DNA of 64,000 nucleotides from Longibaculum muris (GCF_004343035.1 NZ_SMCQ01000003.1:124001-188000), one strand, 5' to 3'; positions 19,384 to 64,000 are shown, numbered from the stretch's first letter. The notes: generated by a model from the sequence alone, not told the origin. Numbers and translations are program-made.

Positions 19384-19398
19384 GCTCCTTATTTATAT
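19368..19398. terminator. two-way terminator between sensor gene and PTS operon
   Basis: Perfect hairpin AAGGAGCTC / GAGCTCCTT with an A/T-rich run on each side. The sensor's TGA stop (19381-19383) is within the hairpin and the IIA gene's TAA (19391-19389) lies at its edge, so one compact element serves both convergent units. Confidence 0.8.
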
Positions 19399-19865
19399 TC
19401 TATAATAGGTGATGTTTTGATTTGAACATCTTCATTTGCATGATATTTTGTGACTGTATGATTTTTTGGATCAACAAGAACAAGCATTGTTATATCGTTA
19501 ATACCATCTGCTTCAAATTTTTGCTTATCATAAGAAATCAATAAATCACCAGGTTTCACTTCATCCCCAACTTTAACAAAGACTTCAAATCCTTCCCCTT
19601 CAAGATTCACAGTATCTAAACCAACATGAATCAGAACTTCTATTCCATCTTCATTTTCGATTCCTACTGCATGTTTTGTATTGTCCATGACCATTGTCAC
19701 CTTACCAATACATGGTGAATAGATTTGTCCAACATTAGGTTGAATGGCTATTCCATCTCCCATCATCTTGGTAGCGAAAACTTCATCAGGTACATCTTCA
19801 ATAGCGACAGTTTTTCCATTTGCCATTGCATAAAATGCTTTATTTTTTTTCTTAAAGAATCCCAT
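19389..19865 (-). CDS. PTS glucose-type EIIA component
   Basis: A 158-residue stand-alone EIIA of the Crr/EIIA-Glc family. Typical blocks are TKMMGDGIAIQP, TKHAVGIENEDG with the first active-site histidine, and VLIHVGLDTV with the phosphorylated histidine. It receives phosphate from HPr and passes it to the IICB encoded three genes upstream. It starts one base after the MalH stop with its Shine-Dalgarno inside malH, and is last in the alpha-glucoside operon. Confidence 0.9.
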   Translation of the reverse strand: MGFFKKKNKAFYAMANGKTVAIEDVPDEVFATKMMGDGIAIQPNVGQIYSPCIGKVTMVMDNTKHAVGIENEDGIEVLIHVGLDTVNLEGEGFEVFVKVGDEVKPGDLLISYDKQKFEADGINDITMLVLVDPKNHTVTKYHANEDVQIKTSPIIEYK

Positions 19866-19866
19866 A

Positions 19867-21710
<1,844 letters not shown>

Positions 21711-21728
21711 TTTTTCTACCTACTTTCT

Positions 21729-23285
21729 TTATAATAAAGCTTCAAAATCTTCTCTAACACTTGGAACTTTTAATCCAACGATAACTTGGATATTTGTTTT
21801 TGTTGCTTTGATACCATGTGTACCAATTGATTTAAAATATGCATCTGATTTAACTAGAGTCTCATCTTTAACGTTAACACGTAAACGTGTTGCACAGTTT
21901 GTGACATCTACAATATTATCTTTTCCACCTAAGGCTTCTAAGATTTTTTCTGCTAAGCTTCCAGCACTTGTTGCTGCTGCTTGTTTTTCTTTGAAATCTG
22001 CTTTTGTATGGAAAGTGATTTCTTCTTCATCATCTTCACGACCTGGTGTCTTGAAGTCAAATTTAAGAATTAAGAATCTAAAGACAACGAAATAAATTCC
22101 TGTAAAGATTAATCCTACTGCTAATAATGTTAAATATGTTGGCCAGTGACTAGCCATTAATGGAATGTAGTTTAATGCTGACATTTCGATTAAACCACCT
22201 GATAAGACACCAACAACTCCACATAAGTAAGCGACTGTTGCAAGTGTTGCAGCTAAAACTGCATGAACAACGAATAATACTGGTGCGATAAATAAGAATG
22301 TAAATTCAATTGGTTCAGTAATACCACAAACAATTGCTGTTAAAGTAATTGGAATTAATAAACCTGCGATTTCTTTTTTCTTGCTATCTTTAGCTGTAAA
22401 GTAGAATGCTAAAGCGATACCTGGACAACCAAAGACTTTAGATAAACCTGTAAGTGTTGGCCAAGCGTAAGGTGCCATTGTTTTTAATGATTCACTGCTT
22501 GCAGCAAGTTGTGGTAAAGCATTTGCCCATGCTGAATAAACACCACCATTAATAACAGCTGAATCATAGAAGAATGGGAAATATAATAAGTGATGTAATC
22601 CAAATGGAATTAAGATACGTTCCATGAAGATAAAGATCCATACACCCATAGCTCCCGCATTAGAAATAAATCCTTGGAAAGCTCTCATACCACTTTGAAC
22701 CATTGGCCATAACCAAGCTGATAAGAAAGCCACTGGAATTAAAGCGAAGAATCCCACAATAACAACGAATGATGAACCACTGAATGTTCCTAACCATTCT
22801 GGTAATTCAGTATCAAAATAACGATTGTGTAGGAAGATAACGATTCCTGAAATCATTAATGCTCCAATCATCCCCATATCTAATGTTTTGATACTAGCGA
22901 TCATTGTTAGACCACTCACTCCTCCAACTTCAGCTGCGAAGTCAACTCCAAAGTTACCTCCCCATTGTGCTAAAATTGTGTTTAAGAAGTATTGGAATGT
23001 TAAGTAAAGAACTAACGCTTCCATACAACATCTGGCTTGTTGCTTTTTCGCTAAGCCAATAGGTAAACCAACAACGAATAATAATGGTAATTGATTAAAG
23101 ACTGTCCAGCCACCTTGTAGGATGACATTCCAACATTGATACCAAAGACCATCAGGACTTGCAAGCCCACCCATGATTGCTTCAGTTGTAAACAATGTTC
23201 CAATTCCAATTGTAATCCCTGCGAATGCAAAGAGTAGAACTGGTGTAAACATTGCCCCACCGAATCTTTGAATTTTTTGCATCAT
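21729..23285 (-). CDS. PTS alpha-glucoside-specific EIICB
   Basis: About 518 residues, starting at MMQKIQRFGGAMFTP behind GGGAGG; the longer open frame to 23375 includes promoter sequence. Ten hydrophobic segments make the IIC domain of the glucose superfamily, with FGLHHLLYFPFFY and CGITEPIEFTFLF (the GITEP substrate-site block). After about residue 430 comes the IIB domain with the phosphocysteine in DVTNCATRLRVNV. Together with the stand-alone EIIA and MalH it forms a maltose-type PTS. The cation-rich linker DEEEITFHTK separates the domains. Confidence 0.9.
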   Translation of the reverse strand: MMQKIQRFGGAMFTPVLLFAFAGITIGIGTLFTTEAIMGGLASPDGLWYQCWNVILQGGWTVFNQLPLLFVVGLPIGLAKKQQARCCMEALVLYLTFQYFLNTILAQWGGNFGVDFAAEVGGVSGLTMIASIKTLDMGMIGALMISGIVIFLHNRYFDTELPEWLGTFSGSSFVVIVGFFALIPVAFLSAWLWPMVQSGMRAFQGFISNAGAMGVWIFIFMERILIPFGLHHLLYFPFFYDSAVINGGVYSAWANALPQLAASSESLKTMAPYAWPTLTGLSKVFGCPGIALAFYFTAKDSKKKEIAGLLIPITLTAIVCGITEPIEFTFLFIAPVLFVVHAVLAATLATVAYLCGVVGVLSGGLIEMSALNYIPLMASHWPTYLTLLAVGLIFTGIYFVVFRFLILKFDFKTPGREDDEEEITFHTKADFKEKQAAATSAGSLAEKILEALGGKDNIVDVTNCATRLRVNVKDETLVKSDAYFKSIGTHGIKATKTNIQVIVGLKVPSVREDFEALL

Positions 23286-23308
23286 AACTCTTTTTTTCCT
23301 CCCTTTTC

Positions 23309-23352
23309 TTGTCTGCACGTTTATAGTAAACCCTTTCAAAAACGTTTTCAAT
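23309..23352 (-). promoter_or_regulatory. promoter and cre-like operator of the alpha-glucoside operon
   Basis: On the minus strand TTGAAA and TACTAT are separated by 17 bases. The -35 lies inside TTGAAAACGTTTTTGAAA (23352-23335), a near-palindrome with the central ACGT of LacI-family operators. It matches the CcpA cre consensus except for one late position. Binding here would block the promoter, fitting catabolite repression or a MalR-type repressor. Confidence 0.55.
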
Positions 23353-23377
23353 ACTTCCACCCGACTTAGGGACAAGG

Positions 23378-23419
23378 GTGATTCTTCAATGATTTATCAC
23401 ATTTACCGTGATTTTTCAC
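23378..23419. repeat. tandem GTGAT/ATCAC palindromes upstream of the alpha-glucoside promoter
   Basis: GTGAT (23378) and ATCAC (23396) form one inverted repeat, and GTGATTTTTCAC (23408-23419) a second. The two GTGAT half-sites are 30 bp apart, about three helical turns. They lie between the two divergent promoters and may be sites for an unidentified dimeric regulator. The rest of 23286-23802 holds the two promoters and the RAT/terminator; no gene is credible there. Confidence 0.35.
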
Positions 23420-23585
23420 AATCAAAAAAGCATTGAATTTATCAACACTTTTTTAAATTCCTTAAAAGGACAATATTTTAAAAAGATAAATAAAAATATA
23501 AACCAAAAATTTTTCACACCATATTTTCTCACTTTTCCATCAAAACATCTTTTCCTAAAATTTCACATATTTACCAAAAAAACGA

Positions 23586-23614
23586 TTGACAGTAATCGCT
23601 TTCAATGATAATAT
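23586..23614 (+). promoter_or_regulatory. promoter with internal cre site for the GH63-PTS-licT operon
   Basis: TTGACA (23586-23591) is followed after 17 bases by TAATAT (23609-23614). Between them, on the minus strand, TTGAAAGCGATTACT (23605-23591) fits the cre consensus WTGNAANCGNWNNCW at every fixed position. A CcpA complex here would overlap the polymerase site and repress the operon when better sugars are present. Confidence 0.7.
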
Positions 23615-23635
23615 ATTGCCTGTAAAAGTTGAAAG

Positions 23636-23669
23636 ATAGTGTGTAACTGGTAATGCAGGCATTAACTAT
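23636..23669 (+). promoter_or_regulatory. RAT (ribonucleic antiterminator) for LicT/BglG protein
   Basis: The leader contains TGTAACTGG, a four-base loop and GCAGGCATTAAC. This matches the conserved halves of BglG/LicT target hairpins (GTTACTG ... GCAGGCAAAACC). Its 3' half overlaps the 5' arm of the terminator that follows, so protein binding would stop the terminator from forming. The cognate protein is probably the LicT-type antiterminator encoded at the end of this operon. Confidence 0.75.
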
Positions 23670-23738
23670 ACAGAAATTATATATAAGGATTAGAGTTTCT
23701 TTATATATTCATTTTTGTATTGTTAATGTCTTTTTTTG
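23659..23738 (+). terminator. leader terminator controlled by the RAT
   Basis: A long imperfect hairpin: CATTAAC pairs with GTTAATG (23660-23666 with 23722-23728), ATACAGAAA with TTTTTGTAT, and ATATATAAG with CTTTATATAT. It ends in TCTTTTTTT. It lies 65 bases upstream of the GH63 start, so transcription stops there unless antiterminated. Confidence 0.75.
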
Positions 23739-23742
23739 ATGA

Positions 23743-26580
<2,838 letters not shown>

Positions 26581-26593
26581 TAACAAATAAAAA

Positions 26594-26637
26594 CAAGGTG
26601 GAAATTTGATATTTATTGTCGAACTTCTACCTTTTTC
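26594..26637 (+). terminator. partial terminator after the GH63 gene
   Basis: AAGGTGGAA (26595-26603) pairs with TTCTACCTT (26625-26633) with one G-T pair, followed by TTTTTC. It probably sets the secreted enzyme's transcript apart from the downstream PTS gene, which has its own promoter. Confidence 0.6.
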
Positions 26638-26656
26638 ATTATTAATGATGATAGCA

Positions 26657-26685
26657 TTGATTCTCATTGTATTCAATGTTAGTAT
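26657..26685 (+). promoter_or_regulatory. probable promoter of the EIICBA-licT pair
   Basis: TTGATT (26657-26662), 17-base spacer, TAGTAT (26680-26685). The start codon follows at 26717 behind GGAGGG. No RAT or cre site is obvious here, so the permease and antiterminator may have a basal level independent of the GH63 leader. Confidence 0.5.
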
Positions 26686-26716
26686 AAAATAAAGAATTTC
26701 ATTATTGGAGGGAAAA

Positions 26717-28798
26717 ATGAAGAATCAAATTTTTGCCATATTACAACGTTTAGGAAAGAGTTTTATGTTACCTATTGCCATTTTACCTATTGCTGGCTTA
26801 TTACTTGCCATTGGTACAACCTTTACAAATGAAGCCATGGTTTCTTCATTTCATTTAGAAAGTCTATTAGGACATCAAACAATTCTTAATGCATTATTCA
26901 TTATTATGAAAAATGTTGGTGGAGCTATTTTTGCCAATTTACCACTTATCTTTGCCATTGGTGTTGCCTTAGGAATGGCAAAAAAGGAAAAAGGTGTTGC
27001 TGTTTTATCGGCCGTTATTGCTTTTATTGTCATGCATACAACAATTCATTCTATGCTTGTGATTGATGGTCAAATTCTTAATGACAATATTATTGCTACT
27101 CATGTAGTGAGTGGAACAATCACATCTGTTTGTGGTATTTATAGTTTGGAAATGGGTGTTTTTGGTGGGATTATTGTAGGTCTTGGTGTAAGTTATCTTC
27201 ATAATCGTTTTTATAAGATGGAACTTCCTAGTACTCTATCTTTTTTTGGCGGAACACGTTTTGTTCCTATTATTTCAACATTAGTTTTTTTAGTTGTTGG
27301 GATTGCCATGTTTTATATTTGGCCAGTCGTTCAAAATGGGATTCTCTCTTTGGGACATCTGGTTGCTGATAGCGGTTATTTTGGAACTTTACTTTATGGA
27401 ATTATTAAACGTTTATTAATTCCTTTTGGATTACATCATATCTTCTATCTCCCCTTTTGGCAAACGGGTCTTGGTGGATCTATGCTTGTCAATGGAACGA
27501 TGGTTTATGGAGGACAAAATATCTTTTTTGCACAACTTGCTGATCCTCATATTGTTCATTTTAGTAGTGAAGCAACAAGATATTTTACAGGAGAATTTAT
27601 TTTTATGATTTTTGGTTTACCAGGAGCTGCTTTAGCAATGTATCATTGTGCAAAACCTGAAAATAAAAAAACTGTAGGTGGACTTCTTTTATCGGCTGCT
27701 TTAACAAGTATTTTGACGGGAATAACGGAACCTATAGAATTTTCTTTCTTATTTGTTGCGCCAATTTTATTTGGAGTACAGGTTATCTTAGCAGGTAGTG
27801 CTTATATGATTGCACATATTTTTAATATTGCTGTTGGACTTACTTTTTCTGGTGGTTTTATTGATTTATTGATGTTTGGTATTCTTCAGGGAAATAGTAA
27901 AACAAGTTGGGTATTATTAATTCCGATTGGTATTGTTTACTTTTTTCTTTATTATATAAGTTTTAAATATTTTATTATGCATTATGATTTAAAGACACTT
28001 GGTCGTAGTGATGAACAACCATTAAAGCAAAATCATATAAAGCCTATTTTTGAAGAAAACAAAGAAGATCAACAGTATCGACTCATTGTTAAGGGATTAG
28101 GTGGACGTCAAAACTTTAATGATTTAGATTGTTGTGTAACTCGTTTAAGAGCTCATATTATTGTACCTGAAAAAATTAATGAAAGTTTACTTAAACAATC
28201 AGGAGCAGCAGGAGTTTTATTACGTGGTGATAGTATTCAAATTATTTATGGACCACATGCTTCTGTGATTAAATCTAAATTAGAAGATTATTTAGAAAGA
28301 ACAACAGATGATGATTTCGTTGATGAAATTTCTCCAGTTTCAATAGAATCAGTTGAATTAAAGAATATTGTTGATGGTGAAGTTGTTGATATTAGTGAAT
28401 CATGTGATAATATATTTGCTCAAAAAATGATGGGTGATGGGCTTATGATTAAACCACAGCATGGTCTAATTTGTTCTCCTTGTGATGCTGTAGTTTCAAT
28501 GATTTTCCCAACTAAACATGCTATTGGTTTAAGATTAAACAATGGATGTGAGATTTTACTTCATTTTGGAGTGAATACGGTAAGTCTTAATGGTGAAGGT
28601 TTTGAATTATTAGTCAAACAAGATCAAACAATTGGTCTAGGTGAACCAATCTGGAATGCTGATCTTCATTACATTAGAGATCATGCTTTAAGTGAAAATA
28701 TAATGTTAGTTGTAACAAAACTACCTAATGGTTTAAAATTAGAAAAGAACTATGGTATAATGAGTACACAAGAAACAATTTTACATATCACAAAATAA
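26717..28798 (+). CDS. PTS glucose-superfamily EIICBA (alpha-glucoside type)
   Basis: About 693 residues from ATG at 26717; the open frame begins with TTG at 26705, but that codon is part of the ribosome binding site. The IIC domain comes first (LPIAGLLLAIGTTF, FGLHHIFYLPFW, GITEPIEFSFLF). IIB follows near residue 450 with the phosphocysteine in DLDCCVTRLRAH. IIA is at about 540-690 with KHAIGLRLNNG and ILLHFGVNTV containing the active histidines. All three domains in one chain need only HPr. The order in the operon, after a secreted glucosidase and before the antiterminator, suggests uptake of the glucosidase's product. Confidence 0.9.
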   Translation: MKNQIFAILQRLGKSFMLPIAILPIAGLLLAIGTTFTNEAMVSSFHLESLLGHQTILNALFIIMKNVGGAIFANLPLIFAIGVALGMAKKEKGVAVLSAVIAFIVMHTTIHSMLVIDGQILNDNIIATHVVSGTITSVCGIYSLEMGVFGGIIVGLGVSYLHNRFYKMELPSTLSFFGGTRFVPIISTLVFLVVGIAMFYIWPVVQNGILSLGHLVADSGYFGTLLYGIIKRLLIPFGLHHIFYLPFWQTGLGGSMLVNGTMVYGGQNIFFAQLADPHIVHFSSEATRYFTGEFIFMIFGLPGAALAMYHCAKPENKKTVGGLLLSAALTSILTGITEPIEFSFLFVAPILFGVQVILAGSAYMIAHIFNIAVGLTFSGGFIDLLMFGILQGNSKTSWVLLIPIGIVYFFLYYISFKYFIMHYDLKTLGRSDEQPLKQNHIKPIFEENKEDQQYRLIVKGLGGRQNFNDLDCCVTRLRAHIIVPEKINESLLKQSGAAGVLLRGDSIQIIYGPHASVIKSKLEDYLERTTDDDFVDEISPVSIESVELKNIVDGEVVDISESCDNIFAQKMMGDGLMIKPQHGLICSPCDAVVSMIFPTKHAIGLRLNNGCEILLHFGVNTVSLNGEGFELLVKQDQTIGLGEPIWNADLHYIRDHALSENIMLVVTKLPNGLKLEKNYGIMSTQETILHITK

Positions 28799-28810
28799 TT
28801 TAAGGAGTGA

Positions 28811-29659
28811 ATGAAATTGAAATATCAAATTATAAAAGTGCTAAATAATAATAGTATACTGGCTAAACAGGGAAATGATGAAGTTATTCTTTTAGCAAAA
28901 GGCATTGGCTTTCAAAAGAAAGTCAATGATATTTTTGAAGCACCAGCAAATACCAAAACATTTTTAATGGTAAAACAAGATGTAGATAAGAAAAAAACAC
29001 AAGATATTTTAAAGAATGTAAATCCTATTTATATAGAAATTTCTTCAGAAATTATTAGATATGCCACTGAAAAATTTGATAAAGTAGATACGAAGATTTT
29101 ACTTCCTTTAGCTGATCATATTGACTTTGCTATTCAAAGACTTAATGAAGGGATGACAATTACAAATCCATTTACAAAAGATATTCAGCTTTTATTTCCT
29201 GATGAATATGAAGTTGCTAAAAAAGGTAAAGAACTTATCCAAAAAATGACTGGACAAACAATTAATGATGATGAAATAGGTTATATAACTTTACATGTTC
29301 ATTCTGCTATTTCAAAAGAACATGTTTATGAGTCAATGGAAGCTACACAAGTCATACATGAAAGTATTGATCAATTAAAAAAAGATTTAAAAATTGAAAT
29401 TGATAGTAATTCTATTTCTTATATTCGACTTATGAATCATATAAAATTCCTATTTTTACGACTTCAAACTCATGAACAGTTACAAATGAATATCAGTGAC
29501 TTTACCAAAGAAAGATTCCCTTTTGCATATCAACAAGCTGAAAATATCTGCTTAAAGTTATCAAAAGTTTTACATCAAGATATTCCTCACTCTGAGATAG
29601 GCTATCTTGCCTTACACCTAGAAAGAATATTATCTATAAGTCTCCAAAATGAAAATTAA
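28811..29659 (+). CDS. licT: LicT/BglG-family transcription antiterminator
   Basis: A 282-residue protein with the RNA-binding CAT domain at 1-55 (IIKVLNNNSILAKQGND, LAKGIGFQKK). Two PRD modules follow: PRD1 has LADHIDFAIQRLNEG and IGYITLHVHSAIS, PRD2 has LMNHIKFLFLRLQ and IGYLALHLERI. Conserved histidines are phosphorylated by PTS proteins to tune activity. It sits 12 bases after EIICBA. The RAT in the GH63 leader is its natural target. The gene symbol marks the family, since the sugar is not known. Confidence 0.9.
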   Translation: MKLKYQIIKVLNNNSILAKQGNDEVILLAKGIGFQKKVNDIFEAPANTKTFLMVKQDVDKKKTQDILKNVNPIYIEISSEIIRYATEKFDKVDTKILLPLADHIDFAIQRLNEGMTITNPFTKDIQLLFPDEYEVAKKGKELIQKMTGQTINDDEIGYITLHVHSAISKEHVYESMEATQVIHESIDQLKKDLKIEIDSNSISYIRLMNHIKFLFLRLQTHEQLQMNISDFTKERFPFAYQQAENICLKLSKVLHQDIPHSEIGYLALHLERILSISLQNEN

Positions 29660-57661: not shown

Positions 57662-57696
57662 AGATAAAAAGAAGTTGTATTAAAACAACTTCTAAC
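57662..57696 (-). terminator. terminator of the chbG-PTS-GH4 operon
   Basis: AGAAGTTGT / ACAACTTCT with loop TTTAAT, followed by TTTTTATC on the minus strand, 30 bases after the GH4 stop. Confidence 0.9.
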
Positions 57697-57721: not shown

Positions 57722-59053
57722 TTATTTATAAAACTTTGGATTCCAATAATCCTTATTTAATTCTAAGAAATCATCTAAAACTTCTTTTCCTTTACGATAT
57801 GAAGGAACCGTTTTATTTAGTAAAATAGCTTGTAATGCTTTATCATATGAACCTTCTAAACAAGCTTCAACAGCTAATTTTTCATAACCCTTTTGAGCTT
57901 CCATTAAAGATTTATGGAATTGAGGAATATATCCAACAGCAACTGGTTCTACCCCTGATGCTCCTACATAACAAGGAACTTCCACAACAGCATCATGATT
58001 AAAATTACCAATCGCTCCATTATTCATAACATTTACAATAAATCTTTCACGCTTATCATTAATAATAGAACTTGCTAAATCAACAATATAATTACCATGT
58101 ACACCTGAAATCAAATATGAATCTTTTGCTGATTGAGTTTCGATAACACGTTTACATTCTTGATAAACTGTTATTTCACGTCCGGCTAATACTGAATCTG
58201 CACGAGTAAACTCATGATCAAATTGTTCCATCATTTCATCATGGAAATAATAATATTGTAAATAACATAATGGCATAAAGTCTGGATAAGCCTTAAATCC
58301 TTTAATGACATTATTAAATGTTTTAAACCAATAGTCATCTAATTTTCCAGCATCTTGTGAAGCACTTAATCCTGTCACTTTTCCTGATAAAACATCTTCT
58401 CTTAATTGTGGTAAAAGATCTTCACCTTTTTTATTATAGATATTTGTATACCAACCAAAATGATTTAAACCAAAATATTTAAAAGTTAAATCTTTTTCAT
58501 CATATCCTAAATAAGCTGCAACTTGTTCTTGTTGTGAAATTGGCATATCACAAATACACAACATTTTAGCTTGTGGATAAGTACGATAAACTGCTTCTGA
58601 TACCATTGCTTCTGGATTTGAATAATTTAATAACCAAGCATTAGGACAAACTTCTAAAGCTGTTTTAACAATTTCTAAAATTGCTGGAATTGTTCTTAAG
58701 GCAAAAGCAAATCCCCCTAGACCACAAGTTTCTTGTCCAATTAATCCATGTTTATAACATGTATGTTCATCAACTGCTCTTTGTTCATTTCTTCCTGGTC
58801 GAATTTGAATAAAGACATAATCAGCCCCAGTTAATGCTTCTTTTAAATCAGTTGTCCAACTTGTTTTAATATCTGGGCGATGTTCACTCATATAAATTCT
58901 ATTAAATTCACCCATATGATAAACACGATCATATTCAATATCATGTAAACATAATTCTGACATTTTGATTTCATCTGCTTTAGCTGTTAAAGCAGCTAAA
59001 ATTCCTGGTGTATGTGTTGATCCTGCTCCAATAATAACAAATTTATTTCCCAT
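57722..59053 (-). CDS. GH4 6-phosphoglycosidase, phospho-alpha-glucosidase class
   Basis: A 443-residue GH4 enzyme. NAD-binding start FVIIGAGSTHTPGILAAL, LLNYSNPEAM, the class motif ICDMP (phospho-alpha-glucosidases; phospho-beta enzymes have CNVP), and GLNHFGWY for the metal site. Needs NAD and a divalent metal. It is last in an operon with a ChbG-type deacetylase and a NagE-type permease. The natural substrate may therefore be a deacetylated, phosphorylated, alpha-linked amino disaccharide. Clearly a different branch from the MalH copy at 19867. Confidence 0.88.
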   Translation of the reverse strand: MGNKFVIIGAGSTHTPGILAALTAKADEIKMSELCLHDIEYDRVYHMGEFNRIYMSEHRPDIKTSWTTDLKEALTGADYVFIQIRPGRNEQRAVDEHTCYKHGLIGQETCGLGGFAFALRTIPAILEIVKTALEVCPNAWLLNYSNPEAMVSEAVYRTYPQAKMLCICDMPISQQEQVAAYLGYDEKDLTFKYFGLNHFGWYTNIYNKKGEDLLPQLREDVLSGKVTGLSASQDAGKLDDYWFKTFNNVIKGFKAYPDFMPLCYLQYYYFHDEMMEQFDHEFTRADSVLAGREITVYQECKRVIETQSAKDSYLISGVHGNYIVDLASSIINDKRERFIVNVMNNGAIGNFNHDAVVEVPCYVGASGVEPVAVGYIPQFHKSLMEAQKGYEKLAVEACLEGSYDKALQAILLNKTVPSYRKGKEVLDDFLELNKDYWNPKFYK

Positions 59054-59070
59054 AATAATATACTCTCCTT

Positions 59071-60489
59071 CTAATCTTCTAACATTTCTTTAAATTCTTT
59101 AGCAACTTTATTAACTTCTGTTCCAATAATAATTTGAATAGAAGTATCACTTAATTTCACAATTCCTTTAGCACCAGTTTTTTTAATATTAACTTCATTA
59201 ACCAATGCTCCATCTTTTAATTCTAAACGCAATCTTGTTACACAACTTTCAACTTCTTCAATATTTTCTTTTCCACCAACATTTTGTAATAGTTTTTTAG
59301 CCATATATTGATAATTTGATGACTCTAATTTAATATTTAATTCTTCTTCAGAAATATCTTCTTCAATAATGAAATCATCTTCTCTACCTGGCGTCTTTAA
59401 ATCAAATTTTTCAATCATAAACTTAAATCCAAAGTAGTAAATAAAGAAGAATACAATACCTACAGGTATAATAATCCATGCATTTGTTCCCATATTAAAA
59501 TTCAAGACAAAATCAATAATACAGAAATTAATAGACATCCCCAAATGAACATCTAATAAATATAGAATTGCTCCAGCAGCCCCAGTTAAAATCGCATGGA
59601 AAGCATATAAACGAGGTGCCACAAACATAAATGAGAATTCTACTGGTTCAGTAATTCCAGCTACAAATGAAGTTAAAGCACCAGATGTCATTAAAGACTT
59701 TGTTTCAGCTTTTTTCTTTTCTTTTGCAGTTTTAGCAATCACAGCACAAGCTCCAGGTAAACCAAACATCATTGGAATAAAGAACATCGCCAAGAACAAA
59801 CCAGCAGTTGGATCTCCTGCTAAGAAACGAGGAATCTCCCCTTTAACAACTTCACCACTCGCTGTAACAAATGAACCTAATTCATAATAAATATACGTAT
59901 TCACAACATGATGTAAACCAATTGGAATTAATAAACGGTTTGTTAAACCAAAGACAAAGACTCCTAATGCTCCAGCACCGGCAATCCAAATCCCAAAACT
60001 ATTTAAACCAGCTTGACAAGGTACCCAAATATAGCTGAAGGCAATTCCTAAAGGTACGGCAACCAATGGTGCCAAAGTTACAACAAACTTTTCACCTGTA
60101 AAGAATGAGAACATTTGAGGGGTTTTCCACTCTTTACTATAGTTATAAACAATTGCTGTCATAACCCCAACAACAATCCCAGCAAAAACCCCCATATTAA
60201 TTGTTTCATTCATGAAAGTTAATACAGATTTAAAAACTGATAATGAAATGACTGCTCCAATAATTGGTATAGCTTTATCTTTTGCTTTGGCATAAGCAAT
60301 CACAGCCCCCACAGCAAATAATAAATCCATCATTCCAAAAACAACCCATGCCGCATTCTCTAATACTGGCAAATTTAATAAATCGGCTGCACTTAAACGT
60401 GCAAGTAACCCTGCAACTGGTGTTGCAGCAATTGGAATCAGCATTGCTTTTCCCAATTTTGATAATTGTTTCATAATTCTGTTAAACAT
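59071..60489 (-). CDS. PTS EIICB, NagE/glucose superfamily
   Basis: 472 residues from ATG at 60489 behind AGGAGAGG, overlapping chbG by 8 bases. The IIC domain has PIAATPVAGLLARLS, IGLHHVVNTYIYYELGSF, RFLAGDPTAGLFLAMFF and GITEPVEFSFMF. The GDPTAG block and Tyr-rich HH region are typical of GlcNAc-type (NagE/NagP) permeases. The IIB domain carries the phosphocysteine in EEVESCVTRLRLE. It has no IIA domain and probably uses the separate IIA encoded at 62235. Strongly similar to the partial IICB at the window's end. Confidence 0.9.
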   Translation of the reverse strand: MFNRIMKQLSKLGKAMLIPIAATPVAGLLARLSAADLLNLPVLENAAWVVFGMMDLLFAVGAVIAYAKAKDKAIPIIGAVISLSVFKSVLTFMNETINMGVFAGIVVGVMTAIVYNYSKEWKTPQMFSFFTGEKFVVTLAPLVAVPLGIAFSYIWVPCQAGLNSFGIWIAGAGALGVFVFGLTNRLLIPIGLHHVVNTYIYYELGSFVTASGEVVKGEIPRFLAGDPTAGLFLAMFFIPMMFGLPGACAVIAKTAKEKKKAETKSLMTSGALTSFVAGITEPVEFSFMFVAPRLYAFHAILTGAAGAILYLLDVHLGMSINFCIIDFVLNFNMGTNAWIIIPVGIVFFFIYYFGFKFMIEKFDLKTPGREDDFIIEEDISEEELNIKLESSNYQYMAKKLLQNVGGKENIEEVESCVTRLRLELKDGALVNEVNIKKTGAKGIVKLSDTSIQIIIGTEVNKVAKEFKEMLED

Positions 60490-61285
60490 TTTTTTCCTCT
60501 CCTTTTGATATATTTTGATAAGTACATAATTCAAAATTGTCTTTCATGTACTTGACCAAGTCTTTTTGTTTAATAGCTTCAGCTTCAATGACTCTTGGAT
60601 AAGCAAAACTAGACTCTGTTAAAATCTTATAATCTAAATATGCTGGATGCCACATCACTTCAATAATCTCATTTTGTAATGATGCCTCTTGAACCAAAGA
60701 TATAATTTCTTCTGATAAAACTTTGACTTTATCCTCAATGTTTTCAATCTTATCACCTAAATTTTTCCATGGATCAATGAGTATATCATTACATTGAATA
60801 TTCTCACTTGTTAAAATTGTTTTATCAGCAAAAGAATTTCTCACAGGTAAGTTATATTCTTTAGCTAACTTCTTAACAATTGATGGATTATTCTTAAATG
60901 TATGAATATGGTGATGGGAATCTAAATGCGTTGGTTGAATACCTGCTTGATAAACTTTTTCAATTTGAGCTTTCCATTCTGCATAAACTTCTTCATCACT
61001 GATGGATGTTGTTGCATCTTGATAAAATGCAAGTTTTTTAAAATTTCCATTTTCATCCACTAAAGTCTGATGTCCTTTTAAAAGTGGTTTTCCACAAGTT
61101 AATGTTAAGTGAACTCCAATTCCAAGTCCCGGATTTGCTTTAGCTAAAGCAATCGCATGATCAAATCCCATCATGGCTGGCATAATTGTTGTTGATGTTA
61201 AAACACCTTGTAGATAACTTTCAATAATCCCATAATTGATGGCTGGTGAATAACCAAAATCATCAGCATTGTTAATAATTCTCAT
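60482..61285 (-). CDS. chbG: ChbG/YdjC-type carbohydrate deacetylase
   Basis: 267 residues from ATG at 61285 after AAAGGAGG. The metal-binding residues are seen in INNADDFGYSPAIN and THLDSHHHIHTF; HPAYLD lies near the C-terminus. Escherichia coli ChbG removes an acetyl group from phosphorylated chitobiose and chitotriose so that the GH4 enzyme ChbF can act. Here it pairs with a GH4 of the alpha class and a NagE-type permease. It is the first gene after the RAT/terminator at 61309-61380. Confidence 0.85.
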   Translation of the reverse strand: MRIINNADDFGYSPAINYGIIESYLQGVLTSTTIMPAMMGFDHAIALAKANPGLGIGVHLTLTCGKPLLKGHQTLVDENGNFKKLAFYQDATTSISDEEVYAEWKAQIEKVYQAGIQPTHLDSHHHIHTFKNNPSIVKKLAKEYNLPVRNSFADKTILTSENIQCNDILIDPWKNLGDKIENIEDKVKVLSEEIISLVQEASLQNEIIEVMWHPAYLDYKILTESSFAYPRVIEAEAIKQKDLVKYMKDNFELCTYQNISKGEEKNV

Positions 61286-61308
61286 GTTTTTCCTCCTTTT
61301 TTCCAAAC

Positions 61309-61380
61309 AAAAAACCTAAAATATAAAATACATAAGTATCTCATATCCTAGGTTTTGCCTGCTTATTCAGTTACAATCCT
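61309..61380 (-). promoter_or_regulatory. RAT and terminator between licT-type gene and chbG
   Basis: On the minus strand GGATTGTAACTG, a short loop and GCAGGCAAAACCT (61380-61350) match the RAT consensus almost base for base. The 3' end AAAACCTA is also the 5' arm of a terminator that closes with TAGGTTTTTT (down to 61309). The RAT's first bases are the last bases of the TAG stop of the antiterminator gene. No promoter is visible between the two genes, so this is an internal switch in the operon. Confidence 0.88.
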
Positions 61381-62230
61381 AATTGCCTAATATTTGTGTT
61401 ATATGAATCATTAAATAAACAATCTCTGCTCTATTCACATCACTCTCCAATTCTTTTTTTACAAATGCTACGATATATCGACTACAATCCAATAGTCTTG
61501 GATCATTTGCAACCAATAATTTATAAATATTTTCATTCACAATTGTCTCATCTCTTAATTCTTTATTCATAACACGTCCAATAAAGAATCTTAAATGTGT
61601 GACTAAACGCATATAAGCTAAAGAATCTCGGTCAATATTTATTTCAAAAACGGCTTCTATAATCTTAACAATATCTATAACATATTGAAGCATTTCAAGG
61701 GAACGATTTTCTCTTTCTTTTTGATCTTCTGGTGTAAAATACAAAGCCATATATCCTGCTTCATCAACTGGTAATCTTACGCCCGTTTTTTCTTCAATAT
61801 AATCAATCATCTTTAAACTCAAATCAAATTCTTCTTTCCAAATGGTTTTAACTTCCATTAAAACCAAATTTGGTAAAAGGATTCCTTCTTTTGTACGTTG
61901 TATGGCTCCAGCAATATGATCTGTAAAATTCATAAAAGTTGATAATGTCATCTTTTTTCCTAAAACAGTTTCTGCTTGTCGAAGTATTTCTTCACTTAAA
62001 CCAAAATATTCTTTTGGAACCCTTTGAACCAATTGGTTCATTTTCTTTTTCTTTCCATCATCTAAGACAAATTTTTGAGTGACCTTATTCATTTCAACAG
62101 AATCACCAATTTTTTTCTTAAAACCAAGTCCTGCCCCTGTCAAAATGATTTCTTCACCTTTTTTATTGAGGCAACTTACAACATTATTGTTATAAATTTT
62201 TAGAATTTCCAAATTCTTGACCTCCTTCAT
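61379..62230 (-). CDS. LicT/BglG-family transcription antiterminator
   Basis: A 283-residue protein: CAT RNA-binding domain at 1-55 (LEILKIYNNNVVSCLNKKG, LTGAGLGFKKKIGD), PRD1 (NFTDHIAGAIQRTKEG, AGYMALYF) and PRD2 (LVTHLRFFIGRVM, IVYLMIHITQI). Relative to most members, HTP-like PRD2 histidines are retained. It lies 4 bases after the IIA gene. RAT elements stand both upstream of its operon and immediately after its own stop codon, so it probably controls its own synthesis and the downstream catabolic genes. Confidence 0.9.
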   Translation of the reverse strand: MKEVKNLEILKIYNNNVVSCLNKKGEEIILTGAGLGFKKKIGDSVEMNKVTQKFVLDDGKKKKMNQLVQRVPKEYFGLSEEILRQAETVLGKKMTLSTFMNFTDHIAGAIQRTKEGILLPNLVLMEVKTIWKEEFDLSLKMIDYIEEKTGVRLPVDEAGYMALYFTPEDQKERENRSLEMLQYVIDIVKIIEAVFEINIDRDSLAYMRLVTHLRFFIGRVMNKELRDETIVNENIYKLLVANDPRLLDCSRYIVAFVKKELESDVNRAEIVYLMIHITQILGN

Positions 62231-62234
62231 ACTT

Positions 62235-62702
62235 TTAATATTCTATCATTGTCGTTGTACCTGACTGACAATTTTCAACTGATAATTTTTTTAAACTCTT
62301 ACCGTTATCATTTAAAATGATAACTGGTGTAACTAAGGATATTCCTTCTTGATGAAAAAACTCTACATCAACTTTTATAACTGGTGTTCCTTTTTTAACC
62401 TTGTCTCCAACTTTGACAAGTGGCTGAAAACCTTGTCCCTTCTTCATAACAGTATCTAAACCAATATGAATCAAAAGTTCTATTCCATCGGTTGATTTTA
62501 TTCCAAAAGCATGTTTAGTTTCAGGAATCAATACAATCTCACCATCACAAGGAGCTACAAAGATATCATCAGTTGGTTGAATAGCTATGCCGTCTCCCAT
62601 CATTCCTGATGAAAAGACTTCATCTTTAACATCACTTAAAGGAATCACTTGACCACTGACTGGTGCAACAATTGTTTTCTTTTTCTTTAAAATATTAAAC
62701 AT
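62235..62702 (-). CDS. PTS glucose-type EIIA component
   Basis: 155 residues from ATG at 62702 behind GGAGG; the longer open frame includes the terminator and RAT. Crr-family blocks are VFSSGMMGDGIAIQP, TKHAFGIKSTDG and LLIHIGLDTVMKKGQG, with the two active-site histidines. It should feed both flanking IICB permeases. First gene of the IIA-antiterminator unit. Confidence 0.9.
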   Translation of the reverse strand: MFNILKKKKTIVAPVSGQVIPLSDVKDEVFSSGMMGDGIAIQPTDDIFVAPCDGEIVLIPETKHAFGIKSTDGIELLIHIGLDTVMKKGQGFQPLVKVGDKVKKGTPVIKVDVEFFHQEGISLVTPVIILNDNGKSLKKLSVENCQSGTTTMIEY

Positions 62703-62713
62703 ATCATTTCCTC

Positions 62714-62778
62714 CAAAAAAATAAAGGCAAAGACATCTTAAAATAAGAAATCTTTGCCTAATTGAATAGTTACAAATC
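62714..62778 (-). promoter_or_regulatory. RAT and terminator in the IIA leader
   Basis: On the minus strand GATTTGTAACT, a loop and TTAGGCAAAGAT (62778-62750) resemble a RAT. The end is shared with a terminator AGGCAAAGA / TCTTTGCCT (62759-62751 with 62733-62725) followed by TTATTTTTTT. The conserved GTAACT and GGCAAA cores are present; outer bases differ from the copy at 61350. Confidence 0.75.
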
Positions 62779-62803
62779 AAATATAGTTTTTGTTTACATC
62801 TAT

Positions 62804-62853
62804 ACTCTAGCAAAAGATTTCCTTCATGTCAATAGTTTTTTAAGCGTTTTCAT
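62804..62853 (-). promoter_or_regulatory. promoter and cre-like site of the IIA-antiterminator-chbG operon
   Basis: TTGACA (62832-62827), 17-base spacer, TAGAGT (62809-62804). Just upstream, ATGAAAACGCTTAAA (62853-62839) fits the cre consensus except the late C. The site touches the end of the IICB gene, so the IIA unit has its own carbon-controlled promoter. Confidence 0.65.
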
Positions 62854-62854
62854 T

Positions 62855-64000
62855 TCAATCTAATAATTCTTTAAATTCCCTTGCTATTTTATTAACATTA
62901 GCTCCAATAATAATTTGAATTTCATGTTCGCCAAATCGCATGATTCCTTTTGAACCACATTGTTTTAATTTTTCTTCATTAACTAACTTTGTATTCTTTA
63001 ATTCTATACGTAATCTTGTTGTACATGCTTCAACATCAATTACATTAGCTTTTCCTCCAACATATTTTAAAATATTCTCTGCAGTATTTTGGTATTGAGA
63101 TCCATTTAAAATGGCTTCAAGTTCTTTTTCTATATTCTGATTTTCTGCATTATCTTCTCTACCTGGTGTTTTTAAATCAAAATGTTCGATTGCTAATTGA
63201 AATGAACAATCATAAAGGAAAAAGAAGAAAATACCCACGGGTATAATAATCCATGCATTTTGTCCCATATTAAAATTCATAATATAATCTATGACACAAA
63301 AATTAACCGATATTCCTAAATGAACATTCATTAAATAAAGAATAACTCCAGAAAATCCAGTAAAAAATGCATGTAAAATATACAATTGTGGAGCAACAAA
63401 CATAAACGAAAATTCAATAGGCTCTGTAATCCCAGAAATAAAACTGGTAATTGCACTTGAAAACATAAATGCTTTTATCTTTTGTTTATTAACCTTTGCC
63501 TTTTTATAGATTGCATGACAGACTCCTGGTAAACCAAACATCATCGGAATAAAAAACATTGCTAAAAATAATCCTGCCGTTGGATCGCCGGCGAGAAAAC
63601 GAGGTAATTCACCTTTCACAACTTCTCCAGAAGCACTTACAAAGGTTCCGAGTTCATAATAAATATATGAATTTAAAACATGGTGTAAACCAGTTGGAAT
63701 CAATAAACGATTAAGTAGACCATAGATAAATATTCCAATTGCCCCAGCACTTGCTATCCAAACACCAAAATCATTTAAACCAGATTGAATAGGAAGCCAA
63801 ACATAACTACAAATATTAGCTAAAACAATCGCAACCAAAGGAGCTAAAGTGACAACTAGCTTCTCACCTCTAAAAAAGATAAATATCTCTGGAATTTTCC
63901 ACTCTTTACTATAGTTAAAAACAATCGCTGTCATAACGCCTACTAAAATTCCAGCAAAAACTCCCATATCAATTGAAGGATCAATAAATGATAATACAGA
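62855..64000 (-). CDS. PTS EIICB, NagE/glucose superfamily, 5' part outside window
   Basis: The frame is open to the window edge (11 more codons beyond an internal Met at 63967), so the start lies outside. Visible: MGVFAGILVGVMTAIVFNY, GLHHVLNSYIYYELGTF, RFLAGDPTAGLFLAMFF and GITEPIEFSFMF, then the IIB domain with DVEACTTRLRIEL. Nearly the same blocks as the IICB at 59071, so the two are close paralogues. No IIA domain; the gene for IIA follows 153 bases downstream under its own promoter. Confidence 0.9.
   Translation of the reverse strand, partial: SVLSFIDPSIDMGVFAGILVGVMTAIVFNYSKEWKIPEIFIFFRGEKLVVTLAPLVAIVLANICSYVWLPIQSGLNDFGVWIASAGAIGIFIYGLLNRLLIPTGLHHVLNSYIYYELGTFVSASGEVVKGELPRFLAGDPTAGLFLAMFFIPMMFGLPGVCHAIYKKAKVNKQKIKAFMFSSAITSFISGITEPIEFSFMFVAPQLYILHAFFTGFSGVILYLMNVHLGISVNFCVIDYIMNFNMGQNAWIIIPVGIFFFFLYDCSFQLAIEHFDLKTPGREDNAENQNIEKELEAILNGSQYQNTAENILKYVGGKANVIDVEACTTRLRIELKNTKLVNEEKLKQCGSKGIMRFGEHEIQIIIGANVNKIAREFKELLD

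Follow-up and report, generated by a model that had tools for sequence, protein, structure and literature searches.

What kind of sugar would call for both a ChbG-type deacetylase and a glycoside hydrolase family 4 (GH4) enzyme of the phospho-alpha class is the question raised by a gene cluster at the end of a 64,000-nucleotide stretch of the Longibaculum muris genome (NZ_SMCQ01000003.1:124001-188000; hereafter, the window). The initial annotation of this DNA predicted that an N-acetylated alpha-linked disaccharide, perhaps from mucin, is imported by the phosphotransferase system (PTS), deacetylated and then cleaved by the NAD-dependent GH4 enzyme. The genes and motifs on which that prediction relied are all present and intact on the minus strand, and they form a predicted operon that, in the order of transcription, consists of EIICB, EIIA, a LicT antiterminator, ChbG, a second EIICB, GH4 and a terminator (Table 1); the LicT/BglG-type antiterminator and the free EIIA are additions to the gene list. 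The predicted route itself gains support from the pairing of ChbG with GH4, the phospho-alpha class of the latter and the presence in relatives of a GH16 protein similar to the endo-beta-galactosidase 1UPS. The GH16 of the relatives weighs most in narrowing the substrate to GlcNAc-alpha-1,4-Gal (GlcNAc, N-acetylglucosamine; Gal, galactose), and we consider it likely that the operon catabolises this disaccharide by PTS import, deacetylation by ChbG and cleavage by GH4.

The GH4 protein matches both Pfam domains of the family (Glyco_hydro_4 and 4C, 180.6 and 184.9 bits) and retains the NAD/Mn active-site residues that are invariant in the GH4 alignment (N146, C168, D169, H198, E108, T109 and R92). 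Enzymes of this family act on 6-phospho-hexosides through oxidation by enzyme-bound NAD, elimination, addition of water and re-reduction (PMC10628242). The phospho-alpha signature noted in the initial annotation, ICDMP, is found at residues 167-171, and the nearest solved structures are those of 6-phospho-alpha-glucosidases (1U8X, GlvA, E 2.8e-113, vs 2.8e-66 for the best 6-phospho-beta-glucosidase). GlvA, the maltose-6'-phosphate glucosidase of Bacillus subtilis, is about 41-43% identical to the window enzyme and shares CDMP and the NAD/Mn residues with it but has Ala 151 and Ala 155 where the latter has E148, two residues past the active-site Asn146, and S152. The window GH4 falls outside the GlvA clade and has NPEAMVS instead of NPAAIVA.

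GH4 homologues were gathered from the family, the order, the phylum, a contig-level genome set and one further order. Residues E148 and S152 fully separate ChbG-linked from other GH4s in the first set: ChbG adjoins all 16 GH4s with Glu-148 and none of the 71 with Ala, which are of the GlvA/maltose type. A second, largely independent set was drawn from Lactobacillales genomes, leaving out any sequence with 95% or more identity to an earlier one; here ChbG is near 16 of the 24 Glu-148 GH4s vs none of the 23 others (Fisher p 6.5e-7), the eight Glu-148 enzymes without a nearby ChbG all being of one type, NPET, and S152 is looser than E148. The association of ChbG with GH4 is far beyond chance. Within the contig-level set, ChbG lies within 8 kb of each of the eight GH4s that are at least 55% identical to that of the window, and the GH4s of G031 (55%) and G198 (49%) likewise have ChbG. 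We denote the close relatives of the window GH4, with identity of at least 49%, lineage A; two deep-branching GH4s (L044 and L045, 47-49% identity) are without ChbG. Four more ChbG-bearing loci, from enterococci and Bacillus chungangensis, encode GH4s at 44-46% identity that constitute a second lineage, and the approximately unbiased test rejects a tree uniting it with lineage A (p-AU 0.009); in the first set, both lineages have E148 and S152.

The pair is found in Coprobacillaceae/Erysipelotrichia-like relatives, Butyricicoccus, Peptostreptococcaceae, Clostridium, Enterococcus and Streptococcus. Conservation of the gene set across genomes, which the initial annotation had left as a point to check, thus holds for ChbG and GH4, accompanied by permeases of three types: NagE-like in the window, L037, L038, L101 and L127, MalX-like in G031 and the streptococci, and cellobiose-type in G198. 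Because the pair is fixed while the permeases are exchanged, it is probably the pair that defines the substrate. The NagE-type permease, which the initial annotation took as a telling feature, is correctly placed at the level of the superfamily but is not the decisive feature, because the other permease types also accompany orthologous pairs. The second EIICB of the window matches TIGR01998 (NagE) with 426.8 bits (E 1e-127), below the equivalog cut-off of 553.2, so that it can be assigned to the NagE/PtsG superfamily with its specificity left unassigned by this score. ChbG is a member of the ChbG/YdjC family by fold and metal site (Pfam YdjC, 191 bits; DD, H66, H131 and H220 retained) and scores 219.9 bits against the PRK02134 'chitin disaccharide deacetylase' equivalog, the cut-off of which is 227. 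An apparent truncation of ChbG in two clostridial species (L037, about 5772; L127, about 6060) was rejected as an artefact: chbG apparently starts at ATT in these loci, the NADDFG part is present, and the catalytic N-terminus is lost from the gene calls because the open reading frame (ORF) callers are limited to ATG, GTG and TTG.

The identity of the substrate is suggested by a secreted GH16 protein that adjoins the ChbG-EIICB-GH4 genes in five loci (L032, L037, L040, L042 and L043). Its best solved match is 1UPS of Clostridium perfringens (E 4.5e-156; next match, 7e-9), an endo-beta-galactosidase that releases GlcNAc-alpha-1,4-Gal from gastric-gland mucin and for which published activity is credited in the reference lists of PMC6827312 and PMC7419316 to Ashida 2002 and Tempel 2005. 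In S. cuniculi, the GH16 homologue is on a contig other than that of the cluster. A reciprocal search with GH16 alone matched one of 207 Clostridiaceae genomes (G729), in which the gene row runs RpiR, ChbG, EIICB (56% identical to that of the window), GH4 (62%) and GH16, the last clearly distinct from the 1UPS sequence; among 197 streptococci, the only match was in the source genome of the query. In the second Lactobacillales set, GH16 is present in seven of the nine lineage-A loci (four of six when non-redundant) vs none of the 41 other loci.

Taken together, these observations lead us to propose the following route. The disaccharide would be freed by a secreted GH16 endo-beta-galactosidase, which relatives produce themselves and which neighbours presumably provide for the window strain. 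A NagE-type EIICB would import the disaccharide and phosphorylate it at C6 of GlcNAc, with phosphate supplied via the free EIIA, to yield GlcNAc6P-alpha-1,4-Gal. ChbG would then strip the acetyl group, and the GH4 enzyme would split the resulting GlcN6P-alpha-1,4-Gal by NAD/Mn-dependent oxidation and elimination into glucosamine-6-phosphate (GlcN6P) and galactose; GlcN6P would pass to NagB and on to glycolysis. The order of deacetylation before cleavage is modelled on ChbG and ChbF of Escherichia coli, where, according to papers that cite Walter 2021 (PMC13197890, PMC12791066), ChbF is inactive on GlcNAc6P-GlcNAc and ChbG is needed first.

Several points weigh against this assignment. The enzyme activities, the phosphorylated position and the cross-feeding are all predictions, and contact of E148 with the C2 amine is a guess. 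A 1UPS-type GH16 in the same genome, to be expected of the proposed GlcNAc-alpha-1,4-Gal utilisation, occurs in many relatives but not in the window genome (3.17 Mb, completeness estimated at 100%), where only a laminarinase-like GH16 was found; because its own genome lacks the enzyme, the organism probably cross-feeds on released disaccharide, and this is the weakest step of the proposal. Butyricicoccus, E. dispar and G198 also carry the pair without a 1UPS-like GH16, and the second ChbG-linked GH4 lineage never has one, so that the ChbG-GH4 pair may have more than one substrate. The same absences, together with the variable permease type, would fit a broader system in which the chemistry is the same but the substrates are alpha-linked GlcNAc disaccharides in general, class III mucin being involved only in the GH16-bearing lineages. 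We regard this as rather unlikely, given that the second EIICB of the window is 56-59% identical to the permeases directly beside GH16 in L037 and L127 and that the sequences nearest to the window GH4 are of the same group.

Use of ordinary beta-linked chitobiose is suggested by the E. coli chb system (ChbBCA PTS, ChbG, ChbF), in which the same two families are paired and a PTS-imported N-acetylated disaccharide is likewise deacetylated before GH4 acts, and by the score of the window ChbG just below the cut-off for chitin disaccharide deacetylases. However, the E. coli operon combines beta-linked chitobiose with a phospho-beta GH4, whereas the window has a GH4 that groups with phospho-alpha enzymes, LicT antitermination and a NagE-type permease; neither a ChbF-type GH4 nor a permease of the Lac/chitobiose family is encoded in the operon, most permeases belong to the glucose/GlcNAc superfamily, and in the disaccharide set free by the linked endo-enzyme the GlcNAc is alpha-linked. 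It is equally improbable that this is a maltose-type operon for a phospho-alpha-glucosidase in which ChbG is an unrelated passenger. The GH4 is indeed 41-45% identical to GlvA-type enzymes and shares their CDMP signature, but ChbG is beside every lineage-A GH4 and at none of the 71 maltose-type loci, antitermination control places chbG first in a unit with GH4, and a separate GH4 of the GlvA clade is encoded in the same genome (window 19867-21198), so that the cluster under study is not the maltose system. Both of these alternatives were rejected on the class of the GH4, the conservation of the pair and the GH16 partner; neither merits more than a very small share of belief, and GlcNAc-alpha-1,4-Gal is retained as the preferred substrate.

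Table 1. Predicted features of the ChbG-GH4 operon and its surroundings (window coordinates)
Feature	Position	Strand	Remarks
EIICB number 1, NagE-like PTS permease	62855..64000	minus	start at 64270 on whole contig, beyond window
Sigma-70-like promoter, TTGACA-17-TAGAGT, 5' of EIIA gene	62804..62832	minus	consensus match only
RAT-like stem and strong terminator, 5' of EIIA gene	62727..62778	minus	terminator -16.9 kcal/mol, z -5.7
Free EIIA domain, glucose/beta-glucoside PTS superfamily	62235..62702	minus	probable ATG at 62702
LicT/BglG-type antiterminator, CAT-PRD-PRD	61379..62212	minus	probable TTG start at 62212
RAT site directly 5' of chbG	61351..61379	minus	exact LicT consensus match
Terminator overlapping RAT	61312..61355	minus	20-bp stem then T run; -21.5 kcal/mol, z -7.8
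ChbG/YdjC-family deacetylase	60482..61285	minus	NADDFG, GVHLTLT, HLDSHHHIH, HPA motifs retained
EIICB number 2, NagE-like PTS permease	59071..60489	minus	
GH4, predicted 6-phospho-alpha-glucosaminidase	57722..59053	minus	443 aa; ICDMP, E148, S152
Terminator-like hairpin 3' of GH4 gene	57670..57693	minus	readable on plus strand too

Control of the operon appears to be of the LicT/BglG type, with a CAT-PRD-PRD protein and a ribonucleic antiterminator (RAT) site that overlaps a terminator located before the controlled genes. Because both elements lie directly before chbG, this gene, the second EIICB and GH4 are predicted to be one antitermination-controlled unit, which LicT, acting through the RAT site, would turn on upon sugar uptake. 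The site is the sole match in 64 kb to what we take to be the LicT RAT consensus, with none in 100 shuffles. The best Rfam match of the region, bglG-cis-reg, overlaps it, with 28.1 bits and E 0.068, below the gathering score. The canonical motif was not found in the other ChbG loci with an antiterminator, even with up to four mismatches allowed. A similar leader may act by antitermination ahead of the EIIA gene, judging from the RAT-like stem and terminator there; the region of the promoter match is no richer in sigma-70-like matches than shuffles. The first EIICB, 66% identical to the second, is probably paralogous to it and transcribed from a separate promoter, and its role in the pathway is uncertain.

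Elsewhere in the genome, the separate GlvA-clade GH4 is accompanied by its own EIICB and EIIA and adjoins a secreted YgjK/GH63-like glucosidase and an EIIBCA-LicT pair (window 19389-29659; L033 7389-17659), which is likely to be a maltose-type alpha-glucoside system. Two further YdjC/ChbG paralogues are encoded on other contigs (L002 1450-2229 and L003 1450-2214), the second of which has lost the HLDSHHH motif and adjoins genes for a PTS regulator and an EIIB-like protein. Among the relatives, a stop codon interrupts the lineage-A GH4 gene in one Lactobacillales genome (L173 6229-7554), and the pathway may be decaying there. The eight NPET GH4s (L188, L198, L206, L208, L192, L197, L199 and L207) lie in operons that encode a MalX-like EIICB but lack ChbG. 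ORF reading and one family search placed a gene for N-acetylmannosamine-6-phosphate epimerase (NanE) near the first four, none being seen at the other four, and several of the operons include a membrane acyltransferase gene; they possibly serve another amino-sugar disaccharide. Two further clusters (L211 3296-9070 and L212) combine an NPET GH4 with a ChbG-like protein that lacks the usual HHH motif, a PRD regulator, a HAD phosphatase and a protein that resembles NagB (GlcN6P deaminase) below its cut-off, a clustering that fits GlcN6P as the product.

GlcNAc-alpha-1,4-Gal caps the mucin of deep gastric (class III) and duodenal glands, and a link with defence against Helicobacter pylori has been reported (PMC3313936). 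The same epitope is attacked by the extracellular GH89 alpha-N-acetylglucosaminidases of C. perfringens (CpGH89), B. bifidum and Hoskinsella (PMC3313936, PMC13096917), which act outside the cell and release GlcNAc, whereas the route proposed here would take the disaccharide up intact, with deacetylation and cleavage following within the cell. Hoskinsella mucinilytica, a gastric-mucin specialist, has a GH4 that is induced by mucin oligosaccharides and inactive on the substrates tried (PMC13096917); its reported identity of 68-72% to known 6-phospho-alpha-glucosidases makes it unlikely to be of the window type. No paper on a '6-phospho-alpha-glucosaminidase' was found in the open-access papers searched, nor did they yield a pathway that joins GlcNAc-alpha-1,4-Gal, an endo-enzyme, a PTS and ChbG. 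All the parts come from known families; what is provisionally new is the way they are combined, the activity predicted for GH4 and a route that would use this mucin disaccharide inside the cell.

All the bacterial routes for GlcNAc-alpha-1,4-Gal that we found described are extracellular; a PTS route dedicated to this disaccharide would account for the fate of the product of 1UPS-type endo-enzymes. The predicted GH4 activity would be new, and one substrate would be enough to test it; NPE in place of NPA offers a sequence mark by which 'maltose-6-phosphate glucosidase' annotations could be corrected. The logic of ChbG would extend from chitin to host mucin, and such a route also suggests cross-feeding on one defined mucin disaccharide.

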